Below the pieces are notes generated by a model. That model was given only the letters and a program-made list of their open reading frames with translations. It did no database searches and was not told the DNA's origin. DNA of 64,000 bases from Streptomyces sp. NBC_00708 (GTDB taxonomy: Bacteria > Actinomycetota > Actinomycetes > Streptomycetales > Streptomycetaceae): the NCBI GenBank assembly GCA_036226585.1, contig CP108997.1, positions 5,704,001 through 5,768,000 of the forward strand. The letters run 5' to 3'. Shown here piece after piece: positions 8,189 to 19,540 of the stretch (position 1 is the stretch's first letter; the number at the start of each line of letters is the position of its first letter). Both the position numbers and the translations under genes were made by a program.

Positions 8189-9019
8189 TCAGCAGGCCTT
8201 GCGCCAGGTCCCCAGCTCCCATTTCTTGCGCATGGAGGAGAGGCCCAGCTTGCGGGACGCGGGGCAGAAGCGGTCGGTCGGCTCGGTGTACTCCACGTGA
8301 AAGACGGCCTTGCCCGCCTCGATGAACGGGGTGAGCTTCGTGCACTCGCCGTACTGCGCGCACTGCTCGTTGACCGCGAAGTCGAAGGTGCCCACCAGCT
8401 GCGGGATCTGTGCCAGATCGTTCTTCAGGCCCACCGCCAGGCCTCGTTCGTGGGCGATGCCGGCGATCATGCGGTTGTACCGCAACTGGTCCCGCGCGGT
8501 GAGCGGGAAGCCCGTGTCCTCTGTGTACGCCTCCACGAGATCGGGCTCCACCGCGTCGAACCCCTTCTTCAGGCACATGTCGAAGCGCCGTTCCATGATC
8601 GGCCGAAGCAGGGAGATCTGCCGGATGTCGAGCCAGCGTTCGCCCTGCCAGCCGTTCCGCCCGCCCCGTACCGAGTGGGGGAAGGCGTCCTTGTCCGGCC
8701 GGTAGTCCTCCCAGGCGCCCACGTTGATGTAGCAGATCACCTTGCGGCCGGCGCGGTGGAGCCGGGCGACGTCCTCGGCGTCGTTCTCGAAGCCGTCGAT
8801 GTCGTAGACCGGCACGTCGGCCGCCGTGGCGTCGACCTTCCCGTCGAGCTGCCACTGCCAGGCCAGCCCCGGACGAGGCTGCCACCGGCCCCCGCCCGGT
8901 CCGCCCGCCGCCGTGTCCGGGCTGCCGCCCGTAGCGGAACAGCCGGACAGCAGGGTGCTGGGAACCGCGACCGTCAGCACGGCCAGTAAGGTGCCCCACA
9001 TCCGGGCTCCGGGCCTCAC
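8189..9019 (-). CDS. GH114-family (endo-alpha-1,4-polygalactosaminidase-like) lipoprotein
   Basis: 276 residues from the GTG at 9019, which overlaps the stop of the upstream gene as GTGA; a secondary ATG lies six codons in. The N-terminus is a lipoprotein signal ending in the lipobox LLSGC (Cys27). The GH114 barrel follows, with strand-end motifs VPVYDIDGFEND, VICYINVGAWEDYRPD, KGFDAVEPDLVEAY and VGLKNDL; the Asp/Glu pairs are the expected catalytic site. Family members (fungal Ega3, bacterial polygalactosaminidases) cut alpha-1,4-galactosamine chains. It is the last gene of the exopolysaccharide operon and probably trims or releases the polymer at the cell surface. Confidence 0.88.
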   Translation of the reverse strand: MRPGARMWGTLLAVLTVAVPSTLLSGCSATGGSPDTAAGGPGGGRWQPRPGLAWQWQLDGKVDATAADVPVYDIDGFENDAEDVARLHRAGRKVICYINVGAWEDYRPDKDAFPHSVRGGRNGWQGERWLDIRQISLLRPIMERRFDMCLKKGFDAVEPDLVEAYTEDTGFPLTARDQLRYNRMIAGIAHERGLAVGLKNDLAQIPQLVGTFDFAVNEQCAQYGECTKLTPFIEAGKAVFHVEYTEPTDRFCPASRKLGLSSMRKKWELGTWRKAC

Positions 9020-9678
9020 CGCCCCGCTCCGGACAGCACCGGTGTCAGCCGGGCCCACGGGTTGGGCGGCTCCCCGGTCACCGGGCCCGACACAGCGGCG
9101 CCACGCTCGTGCGCGGTGTGCACGGCCAGCGGGGCCAGTGCCTCGGGTACGCCGTACACCAGGTGACAGAAGCGGTCGGGCGAACAGCGTGTCGTCCAGT
9201 CGGGTCTGCTGAAGGCCGACACGTAGGTGGACCAGGGGCCCTCGAACGTGACCAGGAGATCGGCGATCCTGGCGTAGCCGGGAGCCGGGTGCACGCCCGG
9301 GTTGAGCACCACGGGCGACGCGCCCCGCCGACGCAGCGCGCGTACCAGTTTCCGGTAAGCGGGCAGCGCGTCCCCGGCGGAGCTCACCCGGTCCAGGAAA
9401 CAGCCGTCGGCGGCGTACCACTCCCGGTGCCGGTCGGCATCGGCCATGACATCGGCGGTGGGCCGGATGCCGTAGTCGGTGTCCACGTAGCCGAGCACCC
9501 GGGCGCCCGCTCCGCGCAGAGCACCCGCCGCCGAGACGAATGCGGGATCGGGAGCGTCGCCCGGCCCGTCGGCGGGATTGAGCACGACCGCGTAGGTGCG
9601 GTCGGCTGCCTCGATGAGCCGGTGCCAGGCGGCAGGGTCCACAGCCGGGTGGACGTACAGCGGGATCAGCAGGCTCAC
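9016..9678 (-). CDS. spherulin-4 family (GH135-like) glycosidase
   Basis: 220 residues from the GTG at 9678, overlapping the stop of the upstream epimerase gene as GTGA. The sequence has the family's opening strand LLIPLYVHP and further barrel strands VVLNPADGPGDAPD, VLGYVDTDYG, GCFLDRV, SPVVLNPG and LLVTFEGPW. Aspergillus Sph3, the founding GH135 enzyme, is an endo-acting hydrolase needed to make galactosaminogalactan. No signal peptide is evident here, so the protein is either cytoplasmic or exported by another route. Its coupling to a GH114 gene parallels the fungal cluster, which holds both Sph3 and Ega3. Confidence 0.83.
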   Translation of the reverse strand: MSLLIPLYVHPAVDPAAWHRLIEAADRTYAVVLNPADGPGDAPDPAFVSAAGALRGAGARVLGYVDTDYGIRPTADVMADADRHREWYAADGCFLDRVSSAGDALPAYRKLVRALRRRGASPVVLNPGVHPAPGYARIADLLVTFEGPWSTYVSAFSRPDWTTRCSPDRFCHLVYGVPEALAPLAVHTAHERGAAVSGPVTGEPPNPWARLTPVLSGAGR

Positions 9679-10601
9679 GACGACGGTTCGCCTTCTTCGC
9701 GCGGGGCCGGCGGGTGTGCGGGGGCGGACCACAGGGCCGTCAGGGACTCCCGCAGCGCGTACGAGGGACGCCAGCCGAGGGCTGACCCGGCGGCGGAGAT
9801 GTCGGAACACTGCCAGGACACCTGCCCCGAGCGGGCGGAGCCCGCCCCCTGCTCCTCGACGCGTCCGCCGAAGCCCGCGATCTCCGCCAGGGTATGCACG
9901 AGGTCGCGCACCGGTACGGCGTCTCCGCCGCCGATGTTGAGCACGCGCGGCAGCGGCCCGGGTGCGGTCACCGCCCGTTCCACCGCCCGCGCCACGTCGC
10001 GTACGTCGACGAAGTCGCGGTACGCCGACAGGTCCCCCAGGCGGAGCACCGCGTCCGGGGCCGGACCCGCGTCGCGCAGGAGACGGGTGACCCGGCCGGG
10101 CAGTCCGCCGGGAGGCGCCCCGGGCCCCACCGGGTTGCCGACCCGCAGGACGAGCGCGTCCAGAGCCGAGGTCGAGACGGTGACCGTGCCGGCCAGTTTC
10201 GTGGCCCCGTAGGCGCTGAGCGGGCGTGTGGCCGCCGACTCCGCCGTCGGGATCCTGCCTGTCCCCGGGCCGTACTCGGCGGCCGAACCGAGATGGACCA
10301 GCCGGGCCGAGGGGCAGGCCAGAGCCATCGCCTCGCACAGGACGGCGGGCCCCCGGGCGTTGGCCTCCGCCAGCGTCACCGGGTCCCCGCCGGTCGCACC
10401 GGCGCAGTTGACCACGGCGTCCGGCGCCGCCGACGCCAGAGTCTTCGCGAGCCGGCCGGCGGAGTCGGTGGCGAGGTCGACGGGAACGCCGGCGGCGGGG
10501 GACCGTCCGCCGGCGAGGACCCACGCATCCTTGAGAGCGCCCAGCCGCTCGGCGACGTGGGCCCCCAGATAGCCGGTGGAACCAAGGACGAGAATGCGCA
10601 T
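9675..10601 (-). CDS. NAD-dependent epimerase/dehydratase (extended SDR)
   Basis: 308 residues. The Rossmann nucleotide-binding motif GSTGYLGAHVAERLG is at the N-terminus, and the catalytic YGATK (Tyr-x-x-x-Lys) follows LVHLGSAAEYG. Later segments (DFVDVRDVARAVERAV, NIGGG) match sugar-nucleotide epimerases and dehydratases. A ribosome site (GGGAG) overlaps the stop of the nucleotidyltransferase gene just upstream. In this operon it probably makes or epimerises the UDP- or dTDP-activated sugar for the polymer; the exact substrate is not determined. Confidence 0.82.
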   Translation of the reverse strand: MRILVLGSTGYLGAHVAERLGALKDAWVLAGGRSPAAGVPVDLATDSAGRLAKTLASAAPDAVVNCAGATGGDPVTLAEANARGPAVLCEAMALACPSARLVHLGSAAEYGPGTGRIPTAESAATRPLSAYGATKLAGTVTVSTSALDALVLRVGNPVGPGAPPGGLPGRVTRLLRDAGPAPDAVLRLGDLSAYRDFVDVRDVARAVERAVTAPGPLPRVLNIGGGDAVPVRDLVHTLAEIAGFGGRVEEQGAGSARSGQVSWQCSDISAAGSALGWRPSYALRESLTALWSAPAHPPAPREEGEPSS

Positions 10602-10608
10602 GCGGTGC

Positions 10609-11322
10609 TCAGGCTCCCTTGAGCAGCAGGGACTTGCGGGTGGTGAACTCCGCGTTGGCCCGGTCGTAGTCGTCGGGGCGGCCGATGTCCAGCCAGTAGC
10701 CGTCGAAATCGTAGGCGCTCGGCGGGTTACCGGAACCCAGCAGATCCAGGACCAACTCGTCGAAGCCCAGCGGCAGCCCGGCGGTGTACCCGTCGAGCGT
10801 GGCCCGGCTCAGCCCGTACACCCCCATCGAAACGCGGTAGTCCATGCTCGGCTTCTCGGTGAAGCCCACCACCTTGCTCGCGTCGGTGGTCAGCACACCG
10901 AAGTCGATGCGCACCTGGCGGGCGTACGTGGCTATGGTCAGCGGTGCTCCCGAGCTCCGGTGGCTGCGCAGGACGTCGGCGTAGTCGAGGTCGGTGAGGA
11001 TGTCCCCGTTCATCACCAGGAAGTTCTCCGGCAGCCGCTCACGCATCATCAGGAGCGGCCCCATGGTCCCCAGCGGCGACGCCTCGGTGGAGTAGTCGAC
11101 CTTCAGGCCCCACTGCGATCCGTCACCGACGTACGCCCGGATGATCTCCCCGAGATGGCCGATGGCGATGGTGCAGCCGGTGAAACCGGCCGAGGCGAGC
11201 TGGCGCAGAACGATTTCGAGGATGGCGTGCTGGTCGCCGATCGGCACCAGCGGCTTGGGCAGGGCCGTGGTGTAGGGCCGCAGCCGGACGCCCTTGCCGC
11301 CGGCCATGATCACTGCGTACAT
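10609..11322 (-). CDS. sugar-1-phosphate nucleotidyltransferase
   Basis: 237 residues from the ATG at 11322, chosen because AAGGGGA stands six bases upstream; a further ATG at 11343 has no good site. The pyrophosphorylase signature is plain: MAGGKGVRLRPYTTALPKPLVPIGDQ. NFLVMNGDIL (metal-binding Asp) and GFTEKPSMDYRVSMGVYG follow. These enzymes activate hexose-1-phosphates with NTP (dTDP-, UDP-, GDP- or CDP-sugar). No allosteric or hexapeptide acyltransferase domain is present. It supplies an activated sugar together with the two flanking SDR enzymes. Confidence 0.88.
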   Translation of the reverse strand: MYAVIMAGGKGVRLRPYTTALPKPLVPIGDQHAILEIVLRQLASAGFTGCTIAIGHLGEIIRAYVGDGSQWGLKVDYSTEASPLGTMGPLLMMRERLPENFLVMNGDILTDLDYADVLRSHRSSGAPLTIATYARQVRIDFGVLTTDASKVVGFTEKPSMDYRVSMGVYGLSRATLDGYTAGLPLGFDELVLDLLGSGNPPSAYDFDGYWLDIGRPDDYDRANAEFTTRKSLLLKGA

Positions 11323-11354
11323 GGTCTTCCCCTTGCTCGACATGCCGGATGTGG

Positions 11355-12356
11355 TCAGATGTTGTAGACGCCGGTCTTGTAGCGGGCGAGGTTGCCCGGC
11401 TCGCGGAAGAACTCCACCGTCTGCGCGAGGCCCTTCTCCAGGGTGTGCGCCGGGCTCCAGCCGGTCGCCGCACGCAGTCGCCCGGCATCCGCGACCAGTC
11501 GCATGACCTCCGAGTTCGCGGGCCGCAGCCGCTGCGCGTCCTCCCGGACGTCGAGCGCGGTGTCCATCACCTTGCCGATGAGGGCGACCAGGTCGCCGAC
11601 GGAGATCTCGCCACCCGTACCGGCGTTGAACGTACGGCCCACGACCTGCTCGGCGGGCGCGGTGCCGACCGCCAGGAACGCCTGCGCGGTGTCCTTGACG
11701 AAGGTGAAGTCCCGGGTGGGACGCAGGTCGCCGAGGGTGATGGTCCGCTCCCCGGCCGCGACCTGCCCGATGACGGTCGGGATCACGGCCCGCATGGACT
11801 GCCGCGGCCCGAAGGTGTTGAACGGCCGCAGCGTCACCACCGGGGTGTCGAAACTGGCGTGATAGCTGTCGGCCAGCCGGTCCCCGCCCGCCTTCGAAGC
11901 CGCATAGGGGGACTGGGTGTTGATGGGGTGGTCCTCGGTGATCGGCACGGTCTGCGCGGTGCCGTAGGTCTCACTGGTCGAGGTGTGCACCAGCCGTGGT
12001 GTGCCCGCGGTCCGTACCGCCTCCAGTACGTTCAGCGTGCCCGTGACGTTGGTGTCCACGTAGCTGTGGGGTGCCCGGTAGGAGTAGGGGATGGCGATGA
12101 GCGCGGCCAGGTGGTAGACGCTGTCGGCCCCTTCGACGAGATGACGGACCGAACCCGGGTCCCGGACGTCGCCGAGGACGATCTCGACCTGGTCCAGGAC
12201 GTCGGGGGACAGGGTTTCGAGCCAGCCGTACGAGGAGAAGGAGTTGTACTGCGCCATGGCCCTCACCCGGTATCCGGCGGTGACGAGCGCCTCGGTGAGG
12301 TGCGATCCGATGAAGCCCTCGGCTCCGGTGACGGCGGCAAGCGGTGGGCCGTTCAC
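11355..12356 (-). CDS. NAD-dependent sugar-nucleotide epimerase/4,6-dehydratase (extended SDR)
   Basis: 333 residues from the GTG at 12356, which has GGAGGAAA six bases upstream. Motifs: AVTGAEGFIGSHLTEALV (NAD-binding), VYHLAALIAIPYSY, TSTSETYGTAQ, YAASK (catalytic Tyr/Lys), RPFNTFGPRQS and RDFTFVKDTA. The TSTSETYG form is typical of GDP-mannose 4,6-dehydratase and WbpP/GalE-like SDRs. It is a candidate maker of UDP-GalNAc or another precursor for the polymer. The stop lies 32 bp before the start of the nucleotidyltransferase gene. A heptanucleotide repeat array lies just upstream of its ribosome site. Confidence 0.86.
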   Translation of the reverse strand: MNGPPLAAVTGAEGFIGSHLTEALVTAGYRVRAMAQYNSFSSYGWLETLSPDVLDQVEIVLGDVRDPGSVRHLVEGADSVYHLAALIAIPYSYRAPHSYVDTNVTGTLNVLEAVRTAGTPRLVHTSTSETYGTAQTVPITEDHPINTQSPYAASKAGGDRLADSYHASFDTPVVTLRPFNTFGPRQSMRAVIPTVIGQVAAGERTITLGDLRPTRDFTFVKDTAQAFLAVGTAPAEQVVGRTFNAGTGGEISVGDLVALIGKVMDTALDVREDAQRLRPANSEVMRLVADAGRLRAATGWSPAHTLEKGLAQTVEFFREPGNLARYKTGVYNI

Positions 12357-12394
12357 GATGGTTTCCTCCGGTGGTCGACGGTTGGTGTTCGGTC

Positions 12395-12463
12395 GGTGGC
12401 AGGTGGCAGGTGGCAGGTGGCAGGTGGCAGGTGGCAGGTGGCAGGTGGCAGGTGGCAGGTGGC
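12395..12463. repeat. tandem 7-bp repeat (GGTGGCA)x9 plus one imperfect unit
   Basis: Nine exact copies of GGTGGCA run from 12395 to 12457, followed by GGTGGCg to 12464. The array fills most of the non-coding gap between the membrane-protein gene (stop at 12491) and the SDR start at 12356. On the transcribed strand it reads as repeats of TGCCACC, ending about 26 bases before the SDR ribosome site. Arrays of this kind change copy number by slipped-strand mispairing. Here that would alter spacing or mRNA structure, not a reading frame. Confidence 0.95.
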
Positions 12464-12490
12464 GGTTGGCGATTGGTCCGTGGAGCGCCC

Positions 12491-13897
12491 TCAGCCGTGC
12501 GCGGCGGGCCGGCCCAGCTTCCGTACGGCCACCGCGGTGAGACAGAGCAGGGCGGCACCGCAGCTCAGAGGCAACGCCGCAGGGCCCGGCGGGGCGCCGG
12601 TCAGCATCCCCGCACCGGGGAACGCCGCCGCGCCGAGACACACGACGGCAGGTGGCCAGGCGGTGCCGAACGCCTGAAGCAGCAGGGAGATCCACAGCGT
12701 TCCGGCGAGCAGCAGAAGGGGGGCGGGCTCGGCGCCCACGAGCATCGCCGCCGGTCCCAGAGGGCCGAGGTACACCAGCAGGCAGCCGGCGAGAACGGCG
12801 GCGGAGCGTGCCCGGAACCCGCCGAGCGTCCTCGCGGACCGCAGCGCGGCCACCGACAGCCCGCGGTAGCGGTAGAGCAGCCACTCGGCCGGCCCCATGC
12901 TCAGGGTCAGCACGATCACGGCCCAGGGCTGGTCCCGGCCCGCCAGGAACGCGAGTGATCCGGCGGCCAGCCCGAACAGGCCGTACGGCAGGGACGGCCA
13001 CAGCCCCGGACGCGCGGTGCCGGGCGCGGCCGGGGCGGAGCGGGTGGCGCGCAGCGCCCAGCCGGCCGCGGCGGCGGCGCCGAGGAGCGACAGCAGCGGC
13101 AGCCCGGCGCGCAGCACGTTCCCGGGTTCCCACCACAGAAGGGACGTCCCACCGGCGGCGACCGGCAGGAGGACCGCCAGCAGCAGCCGCTCGCGGCCCA
13201 GTACGAGCAGCACACCGGCCGCCGCGAGGTAGGCGGACTGGACCGTGACGACCAGGGCCGTCACGCCCGATCCCGAAAGAGCGGTTCCGGCGGCGGCCGC
13301 CGCCGCGGCACCCAGCGGCGCCCCCTTCGCGAGGGTGCGGCCCGCCTCCCGCCGCCCGGCCGCCAGGCGCACGTAGGACCGGTGGCCCAGCGCCTGGTTC
13401 CAGGCCCAGGAAATGAGCCCCGCCACCACCAGCGCCCGCACCGTGCCGTCGGGAGGCAGCAGCCGCCCGGCCAGTGCGTACGCGAGGCCGGGAAGCGCGA
13501 ACAGCAGCCCGCGCAAGGCGCAACGCAGATGGTCGGGCCGCCAGGGGTCCTTGGGACGGGGCGGCTCGGGGAACGTCCGAGGGACGCGCCGGTACAACGC
13601 CGTCGCCAGCGAGAACAGGTCGGCGTGCCCGTACTTCTCCCGGATCACGTCGCCGGTGAGGCCCTCGGACTCCAGCAGGGCGGCGACCTCGTAGGGGTGG
13701 ACCGCCGGCGCGACACCGTCGGCCAGTGCGGCGGCCAGCCCGTCCACCGCGTCGGCTTGAGCCCTGCGGCGGGGCAGGACGGGGGCGCCCGGGTGCGCGT
13801 CGGCGAGGCGCAGGGCGAGGGTGCGGTCGTCGGCGAGGCGCAGGGCCAGCGTGTCCTGCTCCGCGCCGCCCGGTTCCAACGACATGGGTCCGCTCAT
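12491..13897 (-). CDS. polytopic membrane protein, candidate polysaccharide exporter (PelG-position)
   Basis: 468 residues; the ATG at 13897 overlaps the PelF-like stop as ATGA. The first 140 residues are soluble, with a tandem ten-residue repeat (TLALRLADDR / TLALRLADAH) and a helical segment HPYEVAALLESEGL. About ten to twelve hydrophobic segments follow (for example LLFALPGLAYALAGRLL, LLLAVLLPVAAGG, LLVYLGPLGPAAMLVG). Pel operons place a 12-TM PelG transporter directly next to PelF. Position, length and topology fit that role, but I see no diagnostic PelG motif, so homology is inferred. Confidence 0.62.
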   Translation of the reverse strand: MSGPMSLEPGGAEQDTLALRLADDRTLALRLADAHPGAPVLPRRRAQADAVDGLAAALADGVAPAVHPYEVAALLESEGLTGDVIREKYGHADLFSLATALYRRVPRTFPEPPRPKDPWRPDHLRCALRGLLFALPGLAYALAGRLLPPDGTVRALVVAGLISWAWNQALGHRSYVRLAAGRREAGRTLAKGAPLGAAAAAAAGTALSGSGVTALVVTVQSAYLAAAGVLLVLGRERLLLAVLLPVAAGGTSLLWWEPGNVLRAGLPLLSLLGAAAAAGWALRATRSAPAAPGTARPGLWPSLPYGLFGLAAGSLAFLAGRDQPWAVIVLTLSMGPAEWLLYRYRGLSVAALRSARTLGGFRARSAAVLAGCLLVYLGPLGPAAMLVGAEPAPLLLLAGTLWISLLLQAFGTAWPPAVVCLGAAAFPGAGMLTGAPPGPAALPLSCGAALLCLTAVAVRKLGRPAAHG

Positions 13898-15417
13898 CCG
13901 GCCGCGCTCCTCACCGGGAATCTGCCCACCGTCGCCGGCACGTGTTCCTCGACGGCCGAGGGCGCTCTCCGGCCGCCGGACTCGGACAGCTCCTGGTAGA
14001 TGGAACGGAAGGTGTCGATGGTCTGCCGGAGGGTGAACTGCTCGATCACCCTGAGCCGGGCCCCCTCGCCCATCCTCCGGCGCCGTCCGGCGTCGGCCAG
14101 CAGCTCCAGAGCGGCGGCGGCCATCGCGGCCGGGTCGCGGGGCGGCACGACGAGACCGGTGTCGCCGACCGCCTCCCGGACGCCGCCCACGTCCGTGGAG
14201 ACGGTGGCCCGCCCGCACGACATGGCTTCGATCAGGGTGAAGGGGAAGCCCTCGCTGATGCTGGAGAGCATCACGACGTTGCCCGCCGCGTAGGCGTCCC
14301 TGATGTCCTCGACCCGGCCCTCGAAGGTGACCGCGGCGGCATGGCCCAGCTCCGCGGCCAGCGCCTCGCACCGGTCCCGGTAGGCCTCCCCGCCGCGCGG
14401 CGTACCGCCGAACAGGCGCAGCCGCGCGGCCGGCACCCGCTCCCGTACGAGGGCGAAGGCGCGGATCAGGGTCTCCAGGTCCTTGATCGGGTCGACCCGG
14501 CCGGCCCAGCTGAGCACGGGGTCGGTGGGTTCCGGGCCGGCGGGCGGGAACGCGGCGGGGTCCACGCCGTTGTAGACCGTGCGGATCGCATCGGGCGCGG
14601 CGCCTCCGTGCTCCTCCCACAGCCGGTTGTAGCGGTTGCCCGGAGTGATCAGGGCGGCTCGCCGGTACGTCTCCTCGGCGAGCAGCCGGAAGAAGCCCAG
14701 CACGAGAGCCTTCACCGGCCACCGGTAGGGAGCGGTGCGGTATCCGAGGTAGCGCTCGCGCAGATACACCCCGTGCTCGGTGAGCAGCAGCGGCACGCCG
14801 TGCCGTTCCAGTGCGGCGAGGCCCGGAAGGCACGCCACGCCGCCGCTGACCGCGTGTGCCACCCCCGCCGTCGGGTACGGCGCGGCCAGCGGCCGCAGGG
14901 CGTGCTCCAGGAGCGCGGTCGCGGTCACCGCGTCGTGCAGGGTCGGCCGGGCCTCGCGCACCGCGAGTCCGGGCCGGTTCCAGACGGCCGTCAGGATGCC
15001 GAGCGCCTGGTCCCCGCGCAGGAAGGGACTGAGCCTGCCGTCCTCGCCGGCCCGTGCCAGCGCGTACAGAGCCGGGCCGAAGCCGCTCTCCGCGCGCGGG
15101 TCGAGCAGCGCGGTCACGAACCGCTCGTAGGACTCGGCGAGCCGTCGGCCGTGGCGCCCGTACGGCGCCTGCCCCTCGGGGGTGGGACCCCACATGGGGA
15201 CGGAGACGATGCGGCCGACGTGGGCGGGGACCTCCCAGACGACCGGTTCGCGGCCGGTGCCGGTGACGGCGAGCACGTCGAACGCGATGTCGGGCATGCC
15301 GGTCACGAGTTGGTCGCACCAGACGCTCACACCACCGTGACTGTGCGGGTAGGTGCCTTCGGTGAGCAGGGTGACGCGCGACGCGCCGGAGCGTCGCGCG
15401 CCGTGGGGAATGTGCAT
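13894..15417 (-). CDS. pelF: PelF-like GT4 glycosyltransferase (DUF3492 + GT-B)
   Basis: 507 residues. It opens with the DUF3492/PelF signature VTLLTEGTYPHSHGGVSVWCDQLV, then LLTEHGVYLRER and the GT4 C-terminal domain: VYNGVDPAAFPP, LSWAGRVDPIKDLETLIRAF, VTFEGRVEDIRDAYAAGNVVMLSSISEGFPFTLIEAM (EX7E-type motif) and TDVGGVREAV. PelF is the cytoplasmic UDP-sugar transferase that polymerises Pel (alpha-1,4-GalNAc-rich). GGAG stands about eight bases before the ATG. It is coupled to the membrane-protein gene by an ATGA overlap. It is the only glycosyltransferase in the operon and so the likely polymerase. Confidence 0.88.
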   Translation of the reverse strand: MHIPHGARRSGASRVTLLTEGTYPHSHGGVSVWCDQLVTGMPDIAFDVLAVTGTGREPVVWEVPAHVGRIVSVPMWGPTPEGQAPYGRHGRRLAESYERFVTALLDPRAESGFGPALYALARAGEDGRLSPFLRGDQALGILTAVWNRPGLAVREARPTLHDAVTATALLEHALRPLAAPYPTAGVAHAVSGGVACLPGLAALERHGVPLLLTEHGVYLRERYLGYRTAPYRWPVKALVLGFFRLLAEETYRRAALITPGNRYNRLWEEHGGAAPDAIRTVYNGVDPAAFPPAGPEPTDPVLSWAGRVDPIKDLETLIRAFALVRERVPAARLRLFGGTPRGGEAYRDRCEALAAELGHAAAVTFEGRVEDIRDAYAAGNVVMLSSISEGFPFTLIEAMSCGRATVSTDVGGVREAVGDTGLVVPPRDPAAMAAAALELLADAGRRRRMGEGARLRVIEQFTLRQTIDTFRSIYQELSESGGRRAPSAVEEHVPATVGRFPVRSAAG

Positions 15418-15472
15418 GGAGCTGCTCCACAGCCGGGAAGTGAGGGTGTCGGGCCCGGGGGCGCGGGCCCGC

Positions 15473-15497
15473 CCCGGCCGCCGCGGTGGCGGCCGGG
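15473..15497. other. hairpin between deacetylase and pelF-like genes
   Basis: CCCGGCCGCC at 15473-15482 pairs exactly with GGCGGCCGGG at 15488-15497, leaving a five-base loop. It lies in the 99-bp gap within the operon, 20 bases after the deacetylase stop. It may be an attenuator or a 3'-end stabiliser that separates deacetylase expression from the rest of the operon. Confidence 0.45.
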
Positions 15498-15516
15498 ACA
15501 GGAGGGCGTACGCCTG

Positions 15517-17664
15517 TCAGCGCTCCGCGCTGTGGGGGACCTGAGCCACGACGCCGGAAGGAACCTTGGTCCGGGGTGCGGTAGCCGTCGGCGCGCCGGT
15601 CACGGCAGGTGTCCGGTACGGTCCGTCCGTTGTGGCCGGCGCATCCGCGGACGTGGGGAGGTCCAGGGTGTAGGGCAGGACGCCGGCCGCGGCCCAGCCG
15701 GAGACCCGGCCGGCGTAGGAGGACCCGAAGGCGCTGCCGCCGTGCCGGGTGCCGGCGGGCATGGTGGCCGTGATCGCCACGCCTTCGGGCGCCTGTACGG
15801 TCACGCTGTCGCCGATGCGGTAGGCGGTGACCTGGCCCGCGTCGACGGCGGCCCGCCAGGCGGTACGGCGCTGCATCTCGGTGCCGATGTCCTTCATACG
15901 GAGGTTCACGACGGGGGTGTCGGCGGTGAACAGGTCGTCGTAGCCGTCGAGTACACCGTCGAGCACCGGATAGGCGATGCGGTCCTCGGAGAGGTTCGCC
16001 TGGTGGATGAAGTGGGGTCTGGGATCGTTGGAGAGGACGTGCCCCAGTGCGATCCGGGTCTCCAGCGGGACGATGTAGTCGGTGTAGCCGGTGGCGACGT
16101 CCAGCGGCGCGGCCAGGCAGGTGGTGGTGGCGGGGTTGTCCTCGCAGACCCCGCTGCCGCCCTGGGCACGGCTGGTGTAGAGCCAGTTGTACTCGTCCAC
16201 CTGTTCGGTCGCCCGCCCGGCGTTGTAGAAGATGTTCATCGGGTAGCGGGAGATGGTCGTGGCGGGCCCGACCTGGCGTTGCACGGGGTCACGGGAGTTG
16301 TCCGAGCCCAGCCACTGGATGCCCGTGTCGGCGAGGGCGAGTGCCAGGTTGGGGTTGTCCACCGGCTGCTGCGGGGTCACCTTCAGTCCGGAGTGCTCGC
16401 CGGTGACCAACTCCCCCTGGATGAGCGGAAGTCCGGCGGCCACGCCCCATGCCTGGTTGGTCGCGATCTCGTCGACGATTTCGTTCCGGCTGACCCACCG
16501 GGTGGATCCGTCCGTGTTCGTCGCGCACTTCCACGGCACCACGCTGATGTCCTGCACGCAGCCCAGGAAGGCGTGGGTGTAGGTGTGGTTGATCCAGCGG
16601 AATCGGCCGCGGTCGGCGATGAGCTTGTCGGCGAGCAGGTCCTGACCGCCGTTGTCCTCGCGGTGGTCGGCGCTGCCGGAGGCGTTGTAGGCCAGGTCGA
16701 AGGTGAAGTCATGGCTGTTCTGCCAGCCGATGGCGTGATCGACGTCGGCCGGGACCATGCGGACCGGGTCCGGGGTGCCCGCGCCCGGCTGGCAGTCCAC
16801 GTCTCCGGGTGTGCAGTTGAGAACGGTGTCCCAGCGGTCGTCGGCCGCGAAGACGTCGTCGACGTGGACCGCGAAGTAGTTGCGGTCGGCGCCGAGGTGC
16901 ACGCCGCCGGTCATCCACTCCACGATGCCCCGGGCCAGCAGCCGGTACTGCTGCTGGTACCGGTTGTAGACGAAGGTGACGACGAGCTCGCGCCGTCCGT
17001 CGTGCCGGTACTCGCCCACCAGGGAGCCCTTGGCCGTGCTGCCCGGGATGGTGGCCTGGACGTACGGGGTGAAGTCGGCGCCCGTCACCGGTGTCGAGAG
17101 GTAGGCGTAGGACTCGCCCACGGTGGGGGAGTTGTCCTCGAACGGAACCGTGCCCTCCAGGTAGCGGAAGGGCCCGGCCTTGCCGGCCTGCGTCACCTCG
17201 GCCGGCACCCCGTCGACGCTGCCCGCGTAGCCCGTGCCGACCGCCGCGTTGAGCCCCACCTGCGGACGGGCGTAGGTGTAGGCGTCGACCTGGGGGATCG
17301 AGTACGCCTGCTCGTAGGCCACGAGGGCCGCCATCTCGGCGGAGCCCGTGGGGAACGGGTTGTCGTTGGGCAGGACCACGGCCTGGTACTTGGCTCGCGG
17401 TCGGCCGTCGACGGTATCGGCGAGGAAGCCCGCGTCGATCGCGGCGCGGCCCGAGTCGTTCAGATCGACCTCGGTGTACGGCGTTCCGGCGTTCTCCAGT
17501 TCGGCGGCGATGGCGTCGGTGGACGGCCCCCCGTCGGATACGACGAGCACGCGCAGATCGACGCGCGGTACCGGATCGTCCGCCTGGGCGGTGGCAACGG
17601 GTAACCCGATGGTCGCCATCAGTGTGCCCACGACGAGCGCGGTGGTGCGAATGGTCCGCTTCAT
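15517..17664 (-). CDS. secreted Agd3-like (CE18) polysaccharide deacetylase
   Basis: 715 residues from the ATG at 17664, with GGAGGG upstream. Residues 1-28 are a Sec signal peptide (ending ATAQA-DD). A Rossmann-like region (40-250; RVLVVSDGGPSTDAIAAEL) precedes a deacetylase barrel with the metal-ligand motifs HVDDVF (Asp269/270) and NHTYTH (His360, His364). The C-terminus is beta-rich. This architecture matches the Aspergillus galactosaminogalactan deacetylase Agd3 (CE18) more than classic NodB enzymes. It would partly deacetylate a GalNAc polymer outside the cell, giving cationic GalN. It is the first gene of the operon and may be expressed separately, given the hairpin after it. Confidence 0.82.
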   Translation of the reverse strand: MKRTIRTTALVVGTLMATIGLPVATAQADDPVPRVDLRVLVVSDGGPSTDAIAAELENAGTPYTEVDLNDSGRAAIDAGFLADTVDGRPRAKYQAVVLPNDNPFPTGSAEMAALVAYEQAYSIPQVDAYTYARPQVGLNAAVGTGYAGSVDGVPAEVTQAGKAGPFRYLEGTVPFEDNSPTVGESYAYLSTPVTGADFTPYVQATIPGSTAKGSLVGEYRHDGRRELVVTFVYNRYQQQYRLLARGIVEWMTGGVHLGADRNYFAVHVDDVFAADDRWDTVLNCTPGDVDCQPGAGTPDPVRMVPADVDHAIGWQNSHDFTFDLAYNASGSADHREDNGGQDLLADKLIADRGRFRWINHTYTHAFLGCVQDISVVPWKCATNTDGSTRWVSRNEIVDEIATNQAWGVAAGLPLIQGELVTGEHSGLKVTPQQPVDNPNLALALADTGIQWLGSDNSRDPVQRQVGPATTISRYPMNIFYNAGRATEQVDEYNWLYTSRAQGGSGVCEDNPATTTCLAAPLDVATGYTDYIVPLETRIALGHVLSNDPRPHFIHQANLSEDRIAYPVLDGVLDGYDDLFTADTPVVNLRMKDIGTEMQRRTAWRAAVDAGQVTAYRIGDSVTVQAPEGVAITATMPAGTRHGGSAFGSSYAGRVSGWAAAGVLPYTLDLPTSADAPATTDGPYRTPAVTGAPTATAPRTKVPSGVVAQVPHSAER

Positions 17665-18606: not shown

Positions 18607-18991
18607 GGCCCGGGAGGGTAGGCACGACCCGCGCGCACCGTCTGCACCCCGAGCCCCACCGTGTTCACGGTGTGGCCAAAAGCGACTGAATGGTGAAGGT
18701 CTTGTGCGGCCATCTTCACACAGTGTGCGAGAGGACCGTTCCTGCACGATAACGCCATGGTGCGGCGCGGTTGCGGAGAGTTGCCGTACGTGGTCCTGCC
18801 GGAGGTGACGGTCGCGCGGGCAATGGCGGGATCCGTTGGTAGCGAGCCGGCAGTGCCCGCCGGGCGAAGGCTCTTCTGCTGCAGGGACTGTCGGCTGAGG
18901 CGGTCCGGCGAGGGTAAGCCTCGCCTGACGCGGACCGGGCGGCCCCTCGGAGCCGTACGGCTGCATGTGGCTATGTGCGACGATCGTTCGA
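18607..18991. promoter_or_regulatory. 385-bp divergent intergenic region
   Basis: Lies between the divergent secreted-protein and Imm5-type genes and must hold both promoters. GTGAAG near 18690 and CTTCAC near 18712 form a loose inverted repeat. Short frames here have no ribosome site or recognisable product. I see no other structure. Confidence 0.4.
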
Positions 18992-19540
18992 ATGATCAGC
19001 GTGAGCGGGGACTTCGAGCTCTCTACGGGCGAGTTGCGAGCTGTGGCGCGGTACGCCGCCGAGGCGGCGCAGGGCGTTCTGACGATGTTCGAGGACGCCC
19101 ATCCCGGTGATGACCGGCCGCGTGCCGCGATCGACGCCGCGTGGGAGTTCGTCGACGGCGCGCCCCGGACCAGGCTTCAGCGCGTCGCCTCGATGAACGC
19201 GCACCGCGCGGCGAAGGACGCGGCCACCGAAGCCGCAAGGCTCGCAGCACAGGCGGCCGGCGACGCCGCATCCGCCGCCTACCTGCACCCGATCGCGAAG
19301 GCCCACCAGGTCGCCCACATCCTGCGCGCGGCGGCCAACGCGGCCCGCATCGCGGAGATCGAGGACCCCGGAGCGGGGGACCGGGCACTCGAAGGGGCCC
19401 GCGAACGAGCCACCCCCGTCCTGATCGACGTCCTCCGCCGCTACCCTCCCGCCCCCAACGGCAGGAGCCGCACCGCACAGCTCATGACAGCGCTGGACAC
19501 TGCGCTGCGAGGCGGAGTGGATCCAGCGCGCCTTGCGTGA
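18992..19540 (+). CDS. Imm5-family putative immunity protein
   Basis: 182 residues from the ATG at 18992; an ATG at 18965 would add nine poorly conserved residues. It is alpha-helical and very Ala-rich. Family hallmarks are ELSTGELRAVARYAAEAAQGVL, DRPRAAIDAAWEFVDG, RTRLQRVASMNAHRAAKDA and SAAYLHPIAKAHQVAHIL. Imm5 proteins are bioinformatically assigned antidotes in polymorphic-toxin loci. No toxin gene, WXG100 or T7SS gene lies nearby, so this copy is an orphan whose function may differ. Confidence 0.78.
   Translation: MISVSGDFELSTGELRAVARYAAEAAQGVLTMFEDAHPGDDRPRAAIDAAWEFVDGAPRTRLQRVASMNAHRAAKDAATEAARLAAQAAGDAASAAYLHPIAKAHQVAHILRAAANAARIAEIEDPGAGDRALEGARERATPVLIDVLRRYPPAPNGRSRTAQLMTALDTALRGGVDPARLA

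Follow-up and report, generated by a model that had tools for sequence, protein, structure and literature searches.

The window analyzed here is a stretch of 64,000 nucleotides from Streptomyces sp. NBC_00708 (contig CP108997.1, positions 5,704,001 to 5,768,000), and its minus strand carries, from position 17664 down to 8189, an operon of eight genes that run in one direction and are separated by short gaps or overlaps, as judged from the coordinates of the open reading frames. The run begins with a gene for an Agd3-like deacetylase (17664-15517; 715 amino acids, with an N-terminal signal recognized by eye). This is followed by pelF (15417-13894), which encodes a PelF-like glycosyltransferase of family GT4 with DUF3492 and GT4 portions, and by a membrane protein gene (13897-12491) that overlaps pelF through an ATGA. 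The next three genes form what we call the sugar-nucleotide module: SDR1 (12356-11355), a short-chain dehydrogenase/reductase (SDR) that is a candidate LegB-like nucleoside diphosphate (NDP)-hexosamine 4,6-dehydratase; a sugar-1-phosphate nucleotidyltransferase gene of family PF00483 (11343-10609); and SDR2 (10601-9675), a PF01370 member that is a candidate 4-keto reductase or 4-epimerase. The run ends with a gene for a spherulin-4 protein of glycoside hydrolase family GH135 (9678-9016), which overlaps SDR2 through a GTGA, and with a gene for a GH114 lipoprotein (9001-8189), where an alternative GTG start at 9019 would create a GTGA overlap once more. A previous, sequence-only reading of this DNA had listed the same eight genes with their ATGA and GTGA overlaps, and that gene list is correct. 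Indeed, the operon is real, is conserved in many Streptomyces and is largely as that reading described it. The general kind of operon has already been published; the new part is the version of it that carries the dedicated three-gene module.

The distribution of the genes was determined in a sample of 199 Streptomyces genomes, of which 88 have agd3 and 48 have a close SDR1 (E 1e-100). SDR1 lies no more than 8 kb from agd3 in 43 of these 48 genomes, the agd3 match being only partial in four of the 43 (G016, G476, G521 and G580). Among the other five, three have SDR1 on a different contig from agd3, and two (G527 and G221) have an operon of pelF, membrane gene, SDR1, nucleotidyltransferase, SDR2 and GH135, joined in G527 by GH114, wherein agd3 was not found. 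Conversely, 64 of 107 agd3 rows are without an adjacent SDR1, a count that includes three contig-split cases (G548, G553 and G502) and two genes, in G505 (78%) and G438 (69%), that resemble the type of the window and have no SDR1 match. The 107 rows derive from 114, the seven omitted being second fragments of genes already counted. Both versions of the operon occur together in one genome in 18 of the 199. For two of the operon proteins, the 120 top-ranking homologues were listed, and those with a named source come from Streptomyces. S. avermitilis is one of the named sources in which close homologues of the membrane protein and the deacetylase occur.

For comparison at the level of loci, type I was defined as a locus with SDR1 and type II as a locus without it that matches agd3 or pelF strongly, a definition that makes SDR1 counts by type circular, but not those for the nucleotidyltransferase, SDR2 and a small secreted protein described below, nor the results from trees. 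A script selected the gene starts used for the relatives. Both the nucleotidyltransferase and SDR2 are present in all 31 loci that have SDR1 (window included), neither is present in any of the 32 loci that do not, and in every one of the 31 type I loci the module is flanked by the membrane gene and GH135. As examined, type I loci have pelF, the membrane gene and GH135 in 31 cases each, agd3 in 29 and GH114 in 21. Type II has at most five genes, namely agd3 (32 of 32), pelF and the membrane gene (30 each), GH135 (27) and GH114 (22), with two loci (L043 and L098) showing agd3 without pelF. When the genes present at each locus are counted, they are collinear and on the same strand in 31/31 type I loci, again including the window, and in 30/30 pelF-bearing type II loci, and chance adjacency of these genes is thereby ruled out.

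Phylogeny places type II on one side of a single branch, with support of 99/99 for PelF and an SH-aLRT of 100 for Agd3 (the latter tree by a quick method without bootstrap), support that concerns type II and not the window's type as a clade. Residue positions that are specific to type number 19 in PelF, six in Agd3, three in GH135, two in GH114 and three in the membrane protein. One locus outside Streptomyces (L054) has a nucleotidyltransferase (67%) and an SDR2 (42%), along with pelF (47%) and a membrane protein, beside an agd3 relative, so that all or some of the module may be ancient, with a loss in type II.

The family assignments of the module genes are consistent with synthesis of an activated 6-deoxy sugar. 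SDR1 matches the LegB model TIGR04180 with 455.7 bits, the next best NCBIfam model scoring 166.9, and a relative of SDR1 in another locus (L128) reaches 531.2 bits, above the LegB cut-off of 475. The motifs TSTSETYG and YxxxK of SDR1 are invariant in 31/31 type I loci, and the Glu of TSTSETYG, thus also kept in all 31, matches the Glu position of the TDP-glucose-4,6-dehydratase 1r66 (STDEVYG). In the dehydratase, this Glu has a catalytic role. SDR2 matches PF01370 with 126.1 bits, carries the motifs GSAAEYG and YGATK, and aligns with GDP-6-deoxy-mannose reductase 6x3b and GDP-6-deoxy-lyxo-4-hexulose reductase 2pk3 (GSAAEYG versus GSSEEYG in 2pk3). The nucleotidyltransferase matches PF00483 with 131.9 bits, and its top NCBIfam models are of the mannose-1-phosphate guanylyltransferase, MurU and Arch_glmU types, all scoring under their cut-offs. 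Conservation within the operon is highest for SDR1 and the nucleotidyltransferase, with median identities to the window of 90% and 86%, respectively, compared with 61 to 83% for the other six. LegB is described as a GDP-GlcNAc 4,6-dehydratase in C. jejuni (PMC7439481). From families and gene order, the simplest chain would be activation, 4,6-dehydration and 4-keto reduction to yield an NDP-6-deoxy-N-acetylhexosamine (HexNAc), although SDR2 could, from its sequence, still be an epimerase.

Taken together, these genes are best explained, with a probability that we put at roughly 55%, as encoding a Pel- or galactosaminogalactan-like, partly de-N-acetylated hexosamine exopolysaccharide with a dedicated monomer pathway, such that the polymer would contain 6-deoxy-HexNAc. 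The sequence-only reading had instead proposed a polymer containing alpha-1,4-linked N-acetylgalactosamine (GalNAc). Such a polymer is possible, but asserting it goes beyond the evidence, given that SDR1 is LegB-like and scores 142.6 bits against a galE model whose cut-off is 262.3 (NCBIfam), and that SDR2 scores 61.9 against the same model and aligns with epimerases as well as reductases. In its fullest form this alternative holds that the locus is a plain analog of the galactosaminogalactan and Pel systems, making a polymer of alpha-1,4-GalNAc and galactosamine (GalN), perhaps with galactose, wherein the nucleotidyltransferase and the SDRs merely boost UDP-GalNAc and SDR2 (or SDR1) is a 4-epimerase. 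The PelF equivalog match reported below, the similarity of SDR2 to epimerase-family chains, the action of the nearest characterized relatives of the hydrolases and the deacetylase on GalNAc polymers, and the galactosamine-containing polysaccharides and endogalactosaminidase of Streptomyces that are cited in PMC7229062 all fit this view. We nevertheless consider it the less likely reading, as SDR1 falls far under the GalE equivalog cut-off and keeps its dehydratase-type Glu in 31/31 loci, and type II manages without all three module genes.

Genes related to the module also occur elsewhere. A nucleotidyltransferase-like gene lies near relatives of SDR1 in 9 of 13 Actinomycetota loci outside type I operons (roughly 3 to 4 kb examined at each), and one actinobacterial locus (L131:6906-11377) combines an SDR1 relative with a CBS-nucleotidyltransferase and a cytidylyltransferase and thereby resembles a legionaminic acid locus. 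The operon of the window was rejected as a legionaminic acid locus because the later Leg enzymes are absent from its eight genes in Pfam and NCBIfam scans. The pairs found in other actinobacteria, L131 included, would suit a module whose sugar serves as a minor decoration or goes into another glycan, and which is merely co-transcribed with the polymer genes. This is improbable in our estimate, as the eight genes include a single glycosyltransferase, 43 of the 48 close SDR1 genes adjoin agd3, and the position of the module between the membrane gene and GH135 is constant in 31/31 loci.

With a polymer containing 6-deoxy-HexNAc as the favored product, the remaining genes can be assigned presumptive roles. 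The PelF protein matches the model NF038011 with 167.6 bits, above its equivalog cut-off of 100 (NCBIfam), which bears out the identification made in the sequence-only reading, and this GT4 enzyme is the presumed polymerase. For the membrane protein, the sequence-only reading had suggested a comparison with PelG, and the claim of an exporter of the PelG family goes beyond the evidence. The predicted model has about 12 transmembrane helices and, at about residues 42-104 in its N-terminal part, a soluble helical domain, and its fold is that of MOP/MATE flippases: the first 28 Foldseek rows are all MATE, WzxE or MurJ, as are the titles of 49 of 50 listed VIA rows, the remaining one (5c6n) being titled only "protein A." No row titled PelG is among the best 50 of each of these two fold comparisons, no match to the PelG family PF16933 was obtained at E 1 (Pfam), and a profile of the membrane protein compared with 40 PelG sequences by hhalign gave a probability of 0.2%, so that a sequence link was not found. 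On the basis of the modeled fold, it is the presumed exporter in the role of PelG. PelD, PelE, PelB and PelC families are not among the matches listed (best 25 per protein) for the nine proteins scanned, those of the operon among them, a search confined to these proteins rather than the rest of the genome, in agreement with the previous statement that the operon has no PelD or outer-membrane parts.

The same genome holds a second PelF-like locus (L035:9371-14435, corresponding to about 4767370-4772435 of G000:C1), comprising a pelF-like gene (99.8 bits against the cut-off of 100), an SDR2-like SDR gene, a GH135 gene and a gene for a membrane protein that is related at least N-terminally. Matches to agd3, SDR1 and the nucleotidyltransferase were not obtained in the 20 kb examined there.

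The assignment of the first gene product to the Agd3/CE18 deacetylases holds on sequence comparison, with the protein being a divergent relative that falls below the Pfam cut-off. Its score to Agd3_CE (PF25115) is 17.3 bits, under the gathering cut-off of 27.6, and this family is matched at E <=0.01 by 34 of 46 close sequences, at best with 9.2e-07. A profile of those 46 sequences was compared by hhalign with three bacterial Agd3 relatives, which score 93.6, 129.8 and 43.5 bits to PF25115 and 45.7, 50.9 and 53.4 bits to PF25116/CBM87, and the two profiles align over 542 columns with 100% probability (E 9.4e-51), wherein the DD, HxxxH, R and H motifs line up. Residues D269/D270, H360/H364, R473 and H554 are the counterparts of the residues in motifs CM1 to CM4 as defined for Agd3 in PMC7229062, and these six catalytic (metal, acid/base) residues are kept in all 61 sequences (29/29 of type I and 32/32 of type II). 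The proposal of an Agd3/CE18 deacetylase therefore stands for the profile match and the six residues and fails at the Pfam cut-off and at the Met of CM4, which is not kept. Homology is argued from the profile comparison, the AlphaFold model made from the 46 close sequences having a pLDDT of 45.7. A sequence search of the PDB with the deacetylase gave no match, and a profile search gave just two microcompartment proteins (E 0.0086 and 0.28), which were taken as chance. Three further Streptomyces loci (L060, L061 and L062) have Agd3 homologues of 46 to 47% with no other operon genes matched within the 20 kb examined; the L060 protein has changes at the aligned metal-binding positions and is possibly not a deacetylase.

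Both hydrolases of the sequence-only reading were recovered above cut-off. The GH135 protein matches Spherulin4 (PF12138) with 119.1 bits against a cut-off of 30.2, and the spherulin-4 chain 5c5g with E 3.8e-13 in a sequence search of the PDB. The window's protein begins directly at its conserved first motif, and no export signal is visible in 58 copies when N-termini are inspected by eye (with script-chosen starts in the relatives). Since none of the 58 shows such a signal, the protein is presumed to be cytoplasmic, and an intracellular role is likely from its sequence. The notion that the role of PelA has been split into separate proteins stands insofar as the deacetylase is separate from the hydrolase, but a leaderless GH135 is unlike the secreted domain of PelA.

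The GH114 protein belongs to the endo-alpha-1,4-galactosaminidase family (PF03537, 286.8 bits, cut-off 27), has a lipobox LSGC recognized by eye, and matches the PDB entry 6oj1 with E 8.8e-55. Its D154 and E212 align with the nucleophile and acid/base of Ega3, D189 and E247 (residue numbers from PMC12054363), the numbering offset of 41 having been counted by eye and being consistent at Trp154, Asp189 and Glu247. Directly behind the nucleophile lies L155, a position that is Leu in 20/21 type I sequences (one has a gap), whereas it is Asn in 22/22 type II sequences and in Ega3; position 93 is Asn in 20/21 of type I and Ser in 22/22 of type II. Outside the operon, this genome has another GH114 gene (L170:8622-9422, minus strand; 61% identical), with Asn at 155 and Ser at 93, which is the type II pattern. 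A wider survey gave 36 matches, of which 29 besides the window were obtained as loci and compared; position 155 is Asn in 22 of them, Leu, Val or Ile in six and Asp in one, with the nucleophile unaligned in two (L159, with Asp, and L167, with Leu). No SDR1 or nucleotidyltransferase was found at E 1e-6 near 20 of these 29 loci (five with a hydrophobic residue and 15 with Asn at 155; 7 to 19 kb each). Because GH114 genes with Leu, Val or Ile at this position are also seen with no module close by, the switch to Leu155 is no more than a hint.

The presence of a secreted deacetylase and a GH114 enzyme, both of families known from fungi, raises the question of whether the locus attacks or consumes fungal galactosaminogalactan and makes no polymer at all. 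We rejected this explanation as very improbable, as the operon also encodes a PelF-type synthase, a flippase-fold protein, sugar-nucleotide enzymes and a GH135 without a visible leader.

A mechanism in which the operon produces a polymer containing 6-deoxy-HexNAc would proceed as follows. The nucleotidyltransferase would activate a hexosamine-1-phosphate, the LegB-like SDR1 would remove water to form a 4-keto-6-deoxy intermediate, and SDR2 would reduce the ketone. The PelF-type GT4 would then polymerize nucleotide-activated N-acetylhexosamine at the membrane, and the protein of predicted MOP fold would export the chain or work with the glycosyltransferase, in the place of PelG. The leaderless GH135 would probably work inside the cell on nascent chains. 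Outside, the secreted Agd3-like enzyme, whose homology and catalytic residues are established above, would strip part of the N-acetyl groups, and the GH114 lipoprotein would trim the chain. The polymer would hold, as its main or an additional residue and not only GalNAc, a 6-deoxy-HexNAc resembling N-acetylfucosamine or N-acetylquinovosamine.

Several observations weigh against this mechanism. SDR1 falls narrowly below the LegB cut-off (455.7 versus 475), and SDR2 scores slightly higher to the epimerase/dehydratase-family chains 6wjb and 6wj9 than to the reductases. At L035, an SDR2 relative is paired with a PelF-like gene without SDR1 or the nucleotidyltransferase, an arrangement that would suit a 4-epimerase. 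The characterized GH114, GH135 and CE18 enzymes act on GalN or GalNAc polymers, and Leu in place of Asn beside the GH114 nucleophile is also seen in genes with no module nearby. At position 9 of GH135 it is type II, not the type of the window, that departs from 5c5g, and the 19 type-specific positions of PelF include none assigned to the active site. As examined, two of the 31 type I loci lack agd3 and 10 lack GH114. Met666 in CM4 is required for the activity of Agd3 (PMC7229062), yet the equivalent position is Phe552 in the window, with Phe in 28/29 type I sequences (Tyr in one) and Tyr in 32/32 of type II. Finally, we found no biochemical datum or functional paper on a Streptomyces member, in a literature search that most subscription journals lay outside.

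The two versions of the operon invite a broader proposal, which we advance tentatively and at less than even odds. Streptomyces may run two parallel machines with the same core of synthase, exporter, deacetylase and hydrolase, one drawing on ordinary hexosamine pools and the other on an NDP-6-deoxy-HexNAc branch to make a "deoxy-Pel," with the change from Asn to Leu beside the GH114 nucleophile accompanying the latter. If this is true, "deoxy-Pel" would be a partly de-N-acetylated poly-6-deoxyhexosamine, and cationic biofilm polymers of the Pel and galactosaminogalactan class would not be limited to galactosamine. Streptomyces would then offer a natural comparison between machineries that do and do not come with a monomer-making module, within one genome in 18 of 199 cases, and the galactosamine-containing polysaccharides of this genus that are cited in PMC7229062 would become genetically testable. 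The module-bearing version makes polymer composition a sharp test, and the leaderless GH135 and the MOP-fold exporter outside the PelG family would be available for study.

Two further features belong to the surroundings of the genes. A small secreted protein of 174 amino acids (18606-18082, minus strand; signal peptide by eye), overlooked in the sequence-only reading, has no family above cut-off in Pfam and NCBIfam scans, and its gene adjoins agd3 (left ends <=2.7 kb apart) in 20/31 type I and 0/32 type II loci. Just ahead of SDR1, the spacer that separates it from the membrane gene contains a perfect 7-bp tandem repeat of 9.9 copies (12395-12463), which could change expression of the sugar-nucleotide module; among the corresponding spacers of the other 30 type I loci, only that of L066 has a comparable array, built from a different unit. 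No link to the operon was seen for the flanking genes, which encode a methyltransferase (7881-7108, minus strand), a lamin-tail/phytase-like protein (21759-20332, minus strand) and, just upstream of the operon region, an Imm5-like putative immunity protein (18965-19540, plus strand).

The operon resembles several known systems, and its headline combination, presented in the sequence-only reading as a joining of Pel and fungal functions, is not new: a study of 2020 (PMC7229062) had already reported agd3 operons of bacteria in which a glycosyltransferase and a polytopic membrane protein occur together with GH114 and spherulin-4. In that work, Bamford et al. report agd3 homologues in 45 bacterial species, with 30 of the 35 bacterial agd3 genes in their tree lying in or near operons for carbohydrate-active enzymes. 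All of the agd3 operons identified in bacteria encode a multi-spanning membrane protein along with a cytoplasmic glycosyltransferase; they include GH114 with high consistency, and spherulin-4 is found in some Actinobacteria (PMC7229062), as in the window. In contrast, the operon section of PMC7229062 makes no mention of a module of LegB-like, nucleotidyltransferase and SDR genes or of two versions, though its figure 8c or supplements could show such genes.

The fungal galactosaminogalactan cluster shares with the window a deacetylase, a GH135, a GH114 and a GT-type synthase. Uge3 and Gt4c are members of that cluster along with Agd3, Sph3 and Ega3. The window differs from it in having no gene above the GalE cut-off and the LegB-like trio instead, a separate MOP-fold protein and a leaderless GH135. 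A gene list for galactosaminogalactan in Neurospora is given in PMC11356417. Gram-positive pel loci of the form pelDEA(DA)FG, with separate PelA domains (PMC7112168, PMC13254593), are like the window in having PelF and a deacetylase separate from the hydrolase, and the first of these reports also precedes the idea of a split PelA. Unlike these loci, the window has no PelD, PelE or PelG-family protein among the operon proteins scanned, and its deacetylase aligns with Agd3/CE18 relatives, whereas the PelADA of B. cereus is assigned to CE26.

The legionaminic acid pathway starts with a nucleotidyltransferase step. That start is like the window in combining a nucleotidyltransferase with a LegB-like SDR (LegB acting on GDP-GlcNAc; PMC7439481), but in the window another SDR follows in place of the later Leg enzymes. 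A bridge between systems is seen in a locus (L053:5321-12078) that a 100% PelG match assigns to Rubrobacter xylanophilus. Like the window, it has PelF, an Agd3 relative and GH135 together; unlike the window, it has a true PelG (PF16933, 463.6 bits), and its GH135, encoded on the other strand, carries an apparent signal sequence. With the genes for PelF, PelG and the Agd3 relative lined up one after another, this locus is a natural link between the Pel and agd3 systems.

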